NCBI GenBank assembly: GCA_001872995.1
Contig: MNXO01000012.1
Coordinates: forward strand, 1-33,719
Direction: 5' to 3'
DNA length: 33,719 nt
Origin: Bacteroidetes bacterium CG2_30_32_10
GTDB lineage: Bacteria; Bacteroidota; Bacteroidia; Bacteroidales; CG2-30-32-10
In this document: positions 26,554 through 33,719 of the stretch, piece by piece
Numbering within the stretch: the stretch's first letter is position 1
Layout of the letters: every line of letters begins with the position of its first letter
Position numbers and translations under genes: made by a program
Notes under the pieces: generated by a model
The model's input: only the letters and a program-made list of their open reading frames with translations
Told to the model about the DNA's origin: nothing
Databases searched by the model: none

Positions 26554-28695
26554 TTACTTTTTAGAATCAATAAGAATATTAAGTATTTTGATGCCTGCAT
26601 CAGCAATCATTGTACCAGGACCAAAAATGCCTACCACTCCAGCATCATAAAGAAACTGATAATCTTGAGCAGGAATAACGCCACCTACAATAATCATCAT
26701 ATCATCTCTTCCCAATTTCTTAAGTTCTTCAATGATTTGCGGAACAAGTGTTTTATGACCTGCAGCAAGACTGGATATGCCAACAATGTGAACATCATTT
26801 TCCACAGCTTGTTTTGCTGCTTCGGCAGGAGTTTGAAACAAAGGACCCATATCCACATCAAATCCCATATCTGCATAAGCAGTTGCAACTACTTTAGCAC
26901 CTCTGTCGTGCCCATCTTGTCCCATTTTTGCAATCATAATACGTGGGCGACGACCTTCTATCTTCGCAAATTCATCAGCAAGTTCTCTGGCTTTTTTGAA
27001 ATTACTGTCATTTTCTATTTCCATTTTATATACTCCTGAAATTGAACGAATAGTAGCTTTATATCTACCAAATATTTTTTCGCAAGCATCTGAAATTTCA
27101 CCAAGTGAAGCACGTTTTCTTGCAGCATCTATTGCCAATGCTAATAAATTTCCTTGTCCAGTCTGACAAGCATTAGTAATGGCATCTAATGCTTTTTTAA
27201 CCTCATCGCTATTTCTTTCAGCTCTTAGTTTTTTCAAACGAGCTATTTGCGATATACGAACGGCAGTGTTATCTACCTCTAAAGTTTCGATGGGGTCTTC
27301 TTTATCTAAGCGATATTTATTTATACCTACAATTACGTCTTTACCTGAATCAATCTTTGCCTGTTTGCGTGCAGAAGCCTCTTCAATTCGCATTTTTGGC
27401 AAACCTGTTTCAATAGCTTTTGCCATTCCACCCAATTCTTCAACCTCTTGTATTAGTTTCCATGCTTTGTGAGCGATTTCGTGAGTTAATGCTTCTACAT
27501 AATAAGAACCAGCCCATGGATCAATGGCTTTGCATATATTAGTTTCTTCTTGTATAAATATTTGGGTGTTTCTTGCAATACGAGCGGAAAAATCAGTGGG
27601 TAGTGCAATTGCTTCATCAAGAGCATTGGTGTGAAGAGATTGCGTATGACCCAAAGCAGCAGCCATCGCTTCAATACAAGTACGAGCTATATTATTATAG
27701 GGGTCTTGCTCTGTTAAACTCCATCCAGAAGTTTGCGAATGTGTTCTTAAGGCAAGCGATTTAGGGTTCTTAGGATTGAATTGTTTAACCAATTTTGCCC
27801 ACAACATTCTTGCTGCACGCATTTTAGCTATTTCCATAAAATGATTCATTCCTACACCCCAGAAAAACGACAATCTTGGTGCAAAAGAATCTATGTCCAT
27901 ACCAGCTTTAACGCCAGTACGCAAATATTCTAAGCCATCAGCTAAAGTATAAGCCAATTCAATATCAGCAGTGGCACCAGCTTCTTGTATATGATATCCA
28001 CTAATGCTAATAGAATTGAATTTAGGCATGTTTTTGGATGTAAACTCAAATATGTCAGCAATAATTTTCATAGAAGGAGTTGGCGGATAAATATAAGTGT
28101 TACGAACCATAAACTCCTTTAAAATGTCATTTTGAATGGTTCCGCTTAGTTTTTCCATTGATACGCCTTGTTCTTCGGCAGCAACAATATAAAATGCAAG
28201 AACTGGTAATACAGCTCCATTCATAGTCATTGAAACAGACATTTTATCTAAGGGAATTTGGTCGAAAAGAACTTTCATATCAAGAATAGAATCGATAGCA
28301 ACACCAGCTTTACCAACATCACCAACAACGCGTTCGTGGTCAGAATCGTAACCACGATGTGTAGCTAAGTCAAATGCAACAGATAATCCCATTTGACCTG
28401 CTGCAAGATTTCTTCTATAAAAGGCATTTGATTCCTCTGCAGTAGAAAAACCAGCATATTGTCTAATTGTCCAAGGCTGCATCACATACATAGTCGAATA
28501 AGGACCTCTTAGAAAAGGCGCTATGCCTGCTGCATAGTTCAAATGTTCCATTCCTAACAAATCAGATTCCTCATAAACTCCTTTAACTGGAATTTGCTCG
28601 GAAGTAATCCAATTTTTACCAACATTATCTTTACTTTCAGAAGAGTTAGTATTTGTAATTGTTTTATATTGAATATTTTTAAAATCTGGACGCAT
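26554..28695 (-). CDS. mutB: Methylmalonyl-CoA mutase large subunit
   Basis: [62 protein letters not shown]12-binding DGHDRG (DxHxxG) and C-terminal domain. Confidence 0.96.
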
Positions 28696-28719
28696 AATAA
28701 TAATTTTGAGGATTCGTAT

Positions 28720-30591
28720 TTATATTCCTAAAAGGTGATTAAATTTTTGAAGTGTTTCTAAGACATTGGTTCTAATATGAATAAAGGCATCTACACCCGC
28801 TTGTTTAAGATTATCAATAATAGCTGTAGGATAGCCAGCAACAATAACTTTAATATTATTATTTCTTTCTTTTATTTGTTTACAAGATTTAGGTACTATT
28901 TCTGCATATTCATCATCAGAACTACAAATGACAATAATATCGGCATTAGCGTTAAAAGCTTCTTTCGCGCCTTCTTCAACAGTTTGAAATCCATTGGTAT
29001 CAATAATATCATAACCGGCACATCCAAAGAAGTTATTAGCAAACATTGCACGGGCTTTTCGCATAGTAAGATTGCCTATGGTCATCAAAAATACTATAGG
29101 TTTCTTATTCCCTTTTAAAACAAAGTCTTCGGTAGCCATACGCAGTGCTTCAAATGCGGTAGCTCCACGATAGGTTTTTAATTTAGAAGTTAAATCTTTA
29201 ATATCTTTGTTTGGCTGCAACTTATCGAGCATTGTTTCTTTCTGATTAGCATGTTGATTGGTTCCTAACATAACAGTTTTACGCATTGCAATATCCATAT
29301 CTCTTTGCTGGCAGGTTTTTTCAATTTCTTCATAAATTGAGCCATTAGTAATTTGTTCAATTAATCCACCTTTTTCTTCAATAGATTGGAACAATTTCCA
29401 AGCTGCATTAGCAATAGAATCGGTTAAATTTTCTATATAATATGAACCTCCAGCAATATCGGCTACTTTGCTAAAATACGCTTCTTCTTTCAATATGATT
29501 TGAGTGTTTCTAGCAACACGATTTGAAAAATCATCAGGTTTTTTGTAGGTTAAATCAAATGGAAGTACGGTAATTGAATTTGCACCGCCAAGAGAAGCTG
29601 CCATTGTTTCTGTTGTGCTACGAAGTACATTCACATAAGGATCATAAATAGTTTTATTCCAAAAAGAAGTAATCGCATGTATATTCATAGACGCAGATGC
29701 GATGTTCTGAGGTTTATATTGTTCCACAATTTTCGCCCATAATAATCTTGCTGCTCTTAATTTGGCAATTTCCATAAAGTAATTTGACCCAATAGCGAAT
29801 GAAAATAGCATTTTAGATGAAATACTATCGATAGAAATTCCTCTATTTGTCATTTCTGCTAAATACTCATTTGCCGAAGCAAGACTATAAGCAAGTTCTT
29901 GAACAATGGATGCACCAGCATTATGATAATAATGACCATTAATGGTTATTGTTGAAATATTTGGAAGATGAGACTTGGTTGTTTTAAGAACTTCGGCACA
30001 TTCATCAAAATCTGCATTTTTAGATTTATAGAAATTGCCGTGTAGCAGGCAAAAGCTTATTGGGTCAAAATTAATTGAGCCTTTTAATTTTTTAATTTCA
30101 ACATTTTGATTTTGTAATTCTTGGATTAATAAATCCAAAAAAGAGGGATAGGATGTTGCTCCAAAAAAATGAATACTTGTAGTGTTAATATCAATACCTT
30201 TCAATATTTGTCTAATATCATCAGGTGTTTCAATATAATGGGCGTTAAAACCGATAGCATTTGCACCTCTTTTAATTGCTTCTAATGCAATTTTATTTGC
30301 TTCAATCACACTTTTAATGTCCACTTCTTGTCTTATTTCCCAATCGTTTCCATTAGTCTTTGTTCCTCTAACAAAAGGAAAATGTTGGGGTAATGATTTT
30401 AAATGTTCAAGATTGGTGAGATTTTCTTGTCTGTAATAAGGTTTTATCTTTAATCCATCAATGGTTTTCCAGATAAGTTTTTTTTCATAATCGCCACCTT
30501 TAAGGTCTTGCATTATTTTTTCTTCCCATTGTGGTGTTGAAATGTCTGGAAATTCGGAAAATAATTGATCTTCGTTATTGTTTTTACTCAT
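28720..30591 (-). CDS. mutA: Methylmalonyl-CoA mutase small subunit
   Basis: MCM-family sequence directly upstream of mutB with a B12-domain remnant lacking DxHxxG. ATG 30591 (MSKNNNEDQ) preferred over the track start 30654. Confidence 0.93.
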   Translation of the reverse strand: MSKNNNEDQLFSEFPDISTPQWEEKIMQDLKGGDYEKKLIWKTIDGLKIKPYYRQENLTNLEHLKSLPQHFPFVRGTKTNGNDWEIRQEVDIKSVIEANKIALEAIKRGANAIGFNAHYIETPDDIRQILKGIDINTTSIHFFGATSYPSFLDLLIQELQNQNVEIKKLKGSINFDPISFCLLHGNFYKSKNADFDECAEVLKTTKSHLPNISTITINGHYYHNAGASIVQELAYSLASANEYLAEMTNRGISIDSISSKMLFSFAIGSNYFMEIAKLRAARLLWAKIVEQYKPQNIASASMNIHAITSFWNKTIYDPYVNVLRSTTETMAASLGGANSITVLPFDLTYKKPDDFSNRVARNTQIILKEEAYFSKVADIAGGSYYIENLTDSIANAAWKLFQSIEEKGGLIEQITNGSIYEEIEKTCQQRDMDIAMRKTVMLGTNQHANQKETMLDKLQPNKDIKDLTSKLKTYRGATAFEALRMATEDFVLKGNKKPIVFLMTIGNLTMRKARAMFANNFFGCAGYDIIDTNGFQTVEEGAKEAFNANADIIVICSSDDEYAEIVPKSCKQIKERNNNIKVIVAGYPTAIIDNLKQAGVDAFIHIRTNVLETLQKFNHLLGI

Positions 30592-30643
30592 AATCAATAA
30601 ATTTAGAGAGTTGCTTTTATTAATTTTTAGTTTAAATAGCCCA

Positions 30644-30651
30644 CAAAAATA
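30644..30651 (-). promoter_or_regulatory. Putative -7 element TATTTTTG for mutA-mutB
   Basis: Minus-strand exact TAnnTTTG, 53 nt upstream of ATG 30591; weak TTTA-like -33. Confidence 0.4.
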
Positions 30652-30746
30652 CAATAAAATATTTATACTATAAATCTTTTACCTCGTATTTTTCGTTATA
30701 AAAACAACTGAAATACGCTGTTATAAAGGGAATTAATTTGAAAATT

Positions 30747-31991: not shown

Positions 31992-32348
31992 TTAGTAGAG
32001 AAGGTATTTTTTTGCAACCTTTTCCCACTTAGCATCATATTTGCTATCCACAAAATAGATGAGCAAATCGGCATCATACTTGCTATCTACAAAATAAATA
32101 AGTTTATCAGCATCGTATTTGCTTTCGGTGAAGAACCACAAGCCTTCATTTTGTGTAACATCGTACTGACTGCTTACTTTATAAACAAGCAAATCGGCAT
32201 CATACTTGCTATCCACTACAAATACTTTAATTTTTGCATCGTATTTGCTATCGCATGAAAACACTTTTTGTGAAAAAGCTAAATTATAATGAAGAATACC
32301 TCCCCACCATACAAGCAAAACAGCGAATTTGAGAATAATGGATTTCAT
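31992..32348 (-). CDS. Secreted SKYDA-repeat protein (DUF6150-like; possible septknot fold)
   Basis: N-terminal hydrophobic segment followed by six copies of [VIL]-[FYW]-x-x-x-[DSE]-S-[KQ]-Y-D-[AV] with a 13-aa period. Confidence 0.75.
   Translation of the reverse strand: MKSIILKFAVLLVWWGGILHYNLAFSQKVFSCDSKYDAKIKVFVVDSKYDADLLVYKVSSQYDVTQNEGLWFFTESKYDADKLIYFVDSKYDADLLIYFVDSKYDAKWEKVAKKYLLY
32031..32264 (-). repeat. Coding repeat array, about 39-bp period, six SKYDA units (one unit extended by 9 bp)
   Basis: SKYDA-equivalent codons at 32249-32235, 32210-32196, 32171-32157, 32123-32109, 32084-32070, 32045-32031: spacings of 39, 39, 48, 39 and 39 bp. Confidence 0.92.
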
Positions 32349-32423: not shown

Positions 32424-33584
32424 CTAATTAAAAATATATTTATGGTTATATATAATGCTTTTAGCAATATCTTTCATCATAGCATTTGCTTGAAATATCA
32501 TATCTATATCATTAGGAAAAGGTATAGGCTGTGAATTCTTTACTTTTTGGAGAGTTTCTGGTTTCAGTGCATCGAAATCGCCATTTGCTTGAGTAAACAC
32601 ATTGACAAAAGGAGTTTGAACGGTAATAGGTTCTGTTTTAATTAATTGTTTAGTTACATTGTTATAAAAATCAATATATCCAGAAATAATTGATTCTTTA
32701 TTTAGAACTGTTTCGGACACTTTGCAAGAAATGGTTTTAGTTTTAGCAACTTTAAGATCATTGCCTAAGCTGTCTTTCATTACATTTCCCCTGCTATCAT
32801 AAACATATTGCCAGCCATCAGCTACCTCTTTGGTTTCAAACCAATTGTTTGTATTCACTTGTTCGGGAGATACGCTAATAAGCTTGATGTTTAAATAAAT
32901 ATTGTAGTCGTAATCTAAGCCTGTATTTTGCTTGGCATCAAAGTTAATCCACTTGCTATTCATATCAGTTAGGCTTATTTTCAATAACTCTTCTTCAAAG
33001 TTTGGGTGGAAAGGAATGCCGGTTTGGTTTTGAATTTTGAACAGCACATTGGTGGTGCCTAAAAAAAGCGCGATTTGAATTTGGTTATCTACATCTTTAA
33101 AGTCATTGTAATAACCTTTAACTCTAAGAAGGTCATCATAAGCTTGACGTGCACTGTTTTTATCTTTCTTTTTCAGCAAATCCATTGCATGTGCATAGAA
33201 AAAAGTCGCTGCTTTCAATTTGGCGGCGATAATTTCTTCATCATAATTGATATACTTATAGTTAATGGCTGATAAAATATTGCCTGGCAACACTTTTACT
33301 TTATCTTCTCTGTATTTAAGAGAGCGATAAAAGTTAAAGATTTCGTCCCAAATATCAGGTTGACCAGTTTTTCTGAGATATTCGATTTGGTCATTGTCTT
33401 TTTGATTGGCAATGGCATAAGCGTCTTTTAATACATTAATTTCTTTTGCCGAAGAAGGTTTCTTTTTTAATTTCTTCACCGATTTTTCAACCGCCTTATC
33501 GTACATTCCTTTGTTTAAGTAATGAGTAGAGCTGCATCCCATCATTATACTTGCTACTATTAATATAACCGCTATTTTTTTCAT
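32424..33584 (-). CDS. Predicted TPR-like lipoprotein, function unknown
   Basis: Lipobox VASIMMGCSS; helical repeat-like N-terminal half. ATG 33584 (MKKIAVIL) preferred over 33596. Confidence 0.7.
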   Translation of the reverse strand: MKKIAVILIVASIMMGCSSTHYLNKGMYDKAVEKSVKKLKKKPSSAKEINVLKDAYAIANQKDNDQIEYLRKTGQPDIWDEIFNFYRSLKYREDKVKVLPGNILSAINYKYINYDEEIIAAKLKAATFFYAHAMDLLKKKDKNSARQAYDDLLRVKGYYNDFKDVDNQIQIALFLGTTNVLFKIQNQTGIPFHPNFEEELLKISLTDMNSKWINFDAKQNTGLDYDYNIYLNIKLISVSPEQVNTNNWFETKEVADGWQYVYDSRGNVMKDSLGNDLKVAKTKTISCKVSETVLNKESIISGYIDFYNNVTKQLIKTEPITVQTPFVNVFTQANGDFDALKPETLQKVKNSQPIPFPNDIDMIFQANAMMKDIAKSIIYNHKYIFN

Positions 33585-33719
33585 TATGAAAAGCATTTTA
33601 TTGTATGATTAAACGACTGTTTTTTATTTTTTCTATTAATTCATTAAACAAAGATTGAGCCAAAATTAGTGAATAATTTCAAATAAAATAGTCGAACCAA
33701 AAATTACTTATTCAAATTT

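Follow-up and report, generated by a model that had tools for sequence, protein, structure and literature searches.

The gene at 31992..32348 (minus strand) lies in a stretch of 33,719 nucleotides from Bacteroidetes bacterium CG2_30_32_10, the whole of which is called the window here. It raises two connected questions, namely why six units of one small protein carry the same short turn, and whether the chain that links these units may be knotted.

Layout of the gene and its family

According to the list of open reading frames and its translation, the minus strand of 31992-32348 encodes a DUF6150 (PF19647) protein of 118 aa, made of a leader and a six-unit domain; translation of the plus strand of 31992-32348 is interrupted by stops. 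The 27-residue hydrophobic leader MKSIILKFAVLLVWWGGILHYNLAFSQ (32268..32348; all features of this gene are on the minus strand) has no lipobox cysteine, is modelled as a helix at residues 2-21 and, judged from its sequence, is probably a Sec signal peptide. A hydrophobic leader before unit 1 is kept in the aligned homologues and ends in AQ or SQ. It is followed by unit 1 KVFSCDSKYDAKI (32229..32267), unit 2 KVFVVDSKYDADL (32190..32228) and unit 3 LVYKVSSQYDVTQ (32151..32189), the last with the degenerate core SQYDV, then by a midpoint insertion of three residues, NEG (32142..32150), and by unit 4 LWFFTESKYDADK (32103..32141), unit 5 LIYFVDSKYDADL (32064..32102) and unit 6 LIYFVDSKYDAKW (32025..32063). 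The chain ends in a basic tail of ten residues, EKVAKKYLLY (31995..32024), a seventh element that is predicted to be helical (residues 84-89 of the mature model).

This layout agrees with the initial annotation, which had described, without naming the strand, a 27-residue leader and six units repeating every 13 aa, one of them with a degenerate core and an extension of 3 aa. Translation of the minus strand yields both the leader and the six units, and the unusual unit is unit 3 with NEG after it. The period is likewise confirmed, with identities at 33 of 78 positions at lag 13 of the mature sequence compared to a maximum of 20 at the best lag in 10,000 shuffles. A 39-base period, though imperfect, is detectable in the DNA of the repeat gene. 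Unit 3 is also the most deviant unit family-wide, and an insertion of 2-4 aa occupies the same site across the DUF6150 alignment, its Gly and the next Trp being nearly invariant.

The protein matched Pfam PF19647 over profile positions 6-98 of 98 with a score of 133.3 bits (cut-off 27; E 3.2e-39), so that the DUF6150 type proposed in the initial annotation was borne out by an HMM match over nearly the full profile; a search of NCBIfam with the same protein gave no match. The Pfam entry carries the name DUF6150. Neither this term nor Septknot was found in the literature searched, which likewise contained no described function for the family. The window protein is a further member of an already known family. 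It has the six 13-aa units and the midpoint insertion followed by Trp that mark DUF6150, shares with PF19647 a hydrophobic, putatively secretory leader, the W/G at the midpoint, the C-terminal tail and a full-length match, and shows no essential difference from it, the window gene being a typical member with the word SKYD. A secretion leader is usual, not universal, in DUF6150, as four members (L019, L156, L160 and L070) appear to be without one.

Members are mostly Bacteroidota in the genome samples searched, in line with the initial annotation. DUF6150 was found in 18 of the 41 nearest genomes, in 85 of the 294 genomes sampled from the order and in 21 of 397 genomes sampled across the phylum. 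The window genome has three copies, comprising the window gene (SKYD), a 59% identical ADYK copy and a 38% identical WKSE/WKSD copy. In the phylum to which the Coatesbacteria locus L051 belongs, eight of 14 genomes also have the family; in the class of G688, a MAG with the label Acholeplasmatales, only three of 395 do. The DUF6150-matching contig of G688 occurs in a Bacteroidales MAG as well and may be a contamination. A mobile origin of the gene was considered and rejected, no match being found among viral contigs, phages, plasmids and viral structures.

Four-residue words shared by the turns

Unit number was six in 147 of the 150 DUF6150 members scored, and these 147 proteins were cut into their units and compared position by position. 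At core positions 6-9, agreement between the units of one protein was 0.86, 0.70, 0.93 and 0.88, and agreement between different proteins at the same unit was 0.32, 0.25, 0.37 and 0.31. The within-protein match of the core was 0.841 versus 0.317 ± 0.006 when the units were reshuffled among proteins. Positions 1, 3, 11 and 12 behave in the opposite way to the core, with an agreement of 0.61-0.77 for the same unit of different proteins versus 0.09-0.35 across units. The turns of one protein mostly share a word, and 46 majority words were counted, such as SKYD, YKSD, ADYK, YESQ, YDYQ, WKSE, TESW and SESY. The matching of turn words seems not to have been described before, a judgement that rests solely on the absence of DUF6150 from the literature searched.

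When positions 5-9 were left out of the tree, it showed at least 61 changes of word, 26 of the position of the aromatic residue and 29 of the charge pattern at positions 7/9; these counts are rough because the tree rests on few columns. The frequent residue pairs at positions 7/9 are K-D, E-Q, K-E, D-Q and D-K, and between SKYD and ADYK, which are both present in the window genome, the Lys and the acid swap places. Where a core residue deviates from the word of its protein, it is often similar in kind (K/R, E/D, Y/H or A/S). Such joint deviations of units did not reveal which turns are neighbours, the cases being too few. At positions 0-4, units 1-3 cluster apart from units 4-6.

Predicted fold and why the turns may match

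Two AlphaFold2 models were obtained, one of the full-length protein (31 sequences) with a pLDDT of 97-98 across most of the repeats and one of the mature chain (60 sequences) with a pLDDT of 92, and in both of them each unit has a single short strand and a turn centred on the core. The top four Foldseek matches of either model in the PDB were all Q9PR55, a Ureaplasma protein whose 7_1 knot was predicted first and later proven by X-ray crystallography (PDB 8IWA, 8IWB, 8JRM). The next different protein followed at an E-value of 1.4-1.7 with a probability <0.1 (0.08 for the mature model), and no Foldseek E-value was <0.01. In its best register, the mature model aligned over the whole chain with 8iwa_D (TM 0.61, 3.2 Å, 80 columns, probability 0.99), which is a global similarity to the 7_1 crystal structure, and it reached TM 0.61 at 3.4 Å with 8iwb_F. 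The suggestion of a coiled beta repeat with a 7_1-type fold is supported by these confident models and by Q9PR55 as the sole meaningful match in the PDB; neither of the refuting outcomes named in the initial annotation, a failure to match the family or a low-confidence structure without coil or knot, was obtained. From its likeness to Q9PR55, the window protein would carry a 7_1 knot, a prediction to which the described unreliability of AlphaFold on topology (PMC10672856) applies.

The likeness to Q9PR55 is one of fold, whereas identity in the fold alignments is 16-20% and Q9PR55 has 89 aa. P73136 is reported as a relative of Q9PR55 (48% identity) that has one winding fewer and a predicted 5_1 knot (Brems 2022, PMC9278004). 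De novo designed knotted tandem repeats with (2,3) and (2,5) torus knots (PMC10598012) resemble the window protein in that identical repeats are wound twice round a ring, but they are alpha-helical and designed, while the window protein is natural and consists of beta strands and turns.

We consider it probable that DUF6150 proteins are secreted and share the torus-coil fold of Q9PR55, with matched turns packed side by side in a stable scaffold. Six beta-strand/turn units and the C-terminal element would form a compact, probably very stable coil, in which the chain may run twice round a ring with about three units per pass, the conserved midpoint insertion lying near the change of pass. The separate grouping of units 1-3 and 4-6 at positions 0-4, with the insertion between the groups, fits two passes. 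By analogy with the designed knotted repeats, a (2,q) torus arrangement would make units three or four apart neighbours. Turns of different units would then lie side by side and their residues would have to fit each other, presumably through a Lys/Asp or Glu/Gln pair at positions 7/9 together with an aromatic residue at 6, 8 or 9, so that a change in one turn would select the same change in the remaining turns. The role of the protein is the weakest step of this explanation; most likely it is a stable secreted scaffold, which could be protease-resistant, reside in the periplasm or on the cell surface and show a ring of identical polar-aromatic loops that would serve either self-packing or the binding of a repetitive ligand.

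More tentatively, and with somewhat less than even confidence, the DUF6150 proteins might all be beta-repeat proteins with a torus knot and so form a large natural family of this type. The knot would pack distant turns together and force one word on all units, a word that would have been exchanged in all turns jointly on dozens of occasions, and members with three, four or five units (L171, L021, L192, L070) would be simpler torus knots. No protein knot of higher complexity than 7_1 has a solved structure, and studies of this knot have dealt with a single protein. If the proposal is true, a family present in 85 of the 294 genomes sampled from one bacterial order, with 46 interchangeable words and with members of fewer than six units, would provide natural variants to test the formation, the cost and the purpose of such a knot. 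The family would, moreover, be an uncommon example of selection under which six sites of one chain change together.

Matching turns could also arise at the DNA level, by slippage, gene conversion or unequal crossover of 39-bp units, without any selection for matching. The codon identity of matching core residues is slightly above expectation over the 147 genes (0.596 vs 0.497), and this excess is strong in some of them (L041, L058, L129, L033), in which short conversion tracts between units are possible. In the window gene, however, codon identity is near expectation (0.57 vs 0.51), 147 of the 150 members scored have exactly six units, and the flank positions 1, 3, 11 and 12 keep their unit identity across proteins, so that conversion tracts would need to be about 12-15 bp long. 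Since codons are barely above expectation and the flanks keep unit identity, a recent duplication of whole units is unlikely in most genes, and selection that keeps the loops alike is the better explanation, given that homogenised codons are the exception; concerted evolution at the DNA level is an improbable explanation of the matched words. The fold could, on the other hand, be an ordinary unknotted beta-solenoid with a merely local resemblance to Q9PR55. In a number of Foldseek alignments the superposition is poor, at about 10 Å, namely in those of the mature model with 8iwa_A and the NMR model and in every alignment of the full-length model, and no sequence link between DUF6150 and Q9PR55 was found by phmmer (window protein, L019, L070 and L185) or with two family profiles against the PDB, with E up to 10 in most of these searches. 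A search across the class of G688 for a Ureaplasma-like member likewise returned one short SKYD member (L185) and no bridge to Q9PR55. The alignments at about 10 Å are probably in the wrong register, a shift that the repeats permit. Given that two alignments span the whole chain of Q9PR55 at 3.2-3.4 Å with TM 0.61, and that no solenoid is among the PDB matches, we regard an unknotted solenoid as very improbable.

With regard to the role, the six loops may instead match because they make up a multivalent ring that binds a repetitive ligand such as a surface glycan, a mineral or a polymer, the word setting the specificity, so that paralogues would differ in their word. The loops are polar-aromatic turns and the protein has a leader; paralogues of one genome often do differ (SKYD, ADYK and WKSE/WKSD in the window genome), and tandem pairs of SKYD and YKSD recur (L029, L033, L034, L042, L044, L084). 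Yet differing words are expected by chance from a pool of 46, two copies in one genome (L126 and L128 of G484) have the identical word YESQ, and no neighbouring gene or domain points to a ligand. A binding ring as the reason for the match seems rather unlikely, and we favour the packing of turns side by side in a stable scaffold.

Gene neighbours and variants of the family

No gene neighbour was conserved generally among the DUF6150 loci or held in common with the window. Some contexts are shared locally, such as rpsP-rimM in three loci and, in four loci, a tandem pair flanked by a transporter, an outer-membrane protein and a large membrane-anchored protein. The neighbours of the window gene encode a beta-barrel outer-membrane protein and a flavoprotein, the latter by inference UbiX-like, and a probable lipoprotein of 390 aa (MMGCSS; 32424-33596, minus strand) without a Pfam match is encoded upstream of it. 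Two consecutive methylmalonyl-CoA mutase genes, of the large and small subunit type, are found at 26554-30654 (minus strand).

Some members have fewer units, with four in L021:1456-1728 (-), three in L171:914-1159 (+) and four in L192:256-1698 (+), and these three are candidates for simpler torus knots. A short leaderless SKYD/SKYN member, L185:1480-1707 (-), was found in a genome of 1.3 Mb of the class sampled around G688 and is possibly near the Ureaplasma type. Members with the words WKSE, WKSD or YKSE (L003, L063, L152, L157, L158, L164) are without the C-terminal tail and end shortly after the last unit. A fusion, L070:985-1701 (-), joins five leaderless units of the YAYEA type to a Ser-rich stretch, a probable membrane segment and an SH3_3-like domain, which scored below the cut-off (24.1 of 27 bits). 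L173-L179 are distant relatives that score weakly and have a degenerate repeat pattern; most of them start with TVIEMTHPxDANLVLL or similar, and the two matches in L172 are unrelated-looking long ORFs. Tandem DUF6150 genes with differing words adjoin in nine loci (L029, L033, L034, L041, L042, L044, L084, L037 and L190); SKYD stands beside YKSD or YKSE or beside YESQ, and L190 combines YEYQ, YESQ and YESG.
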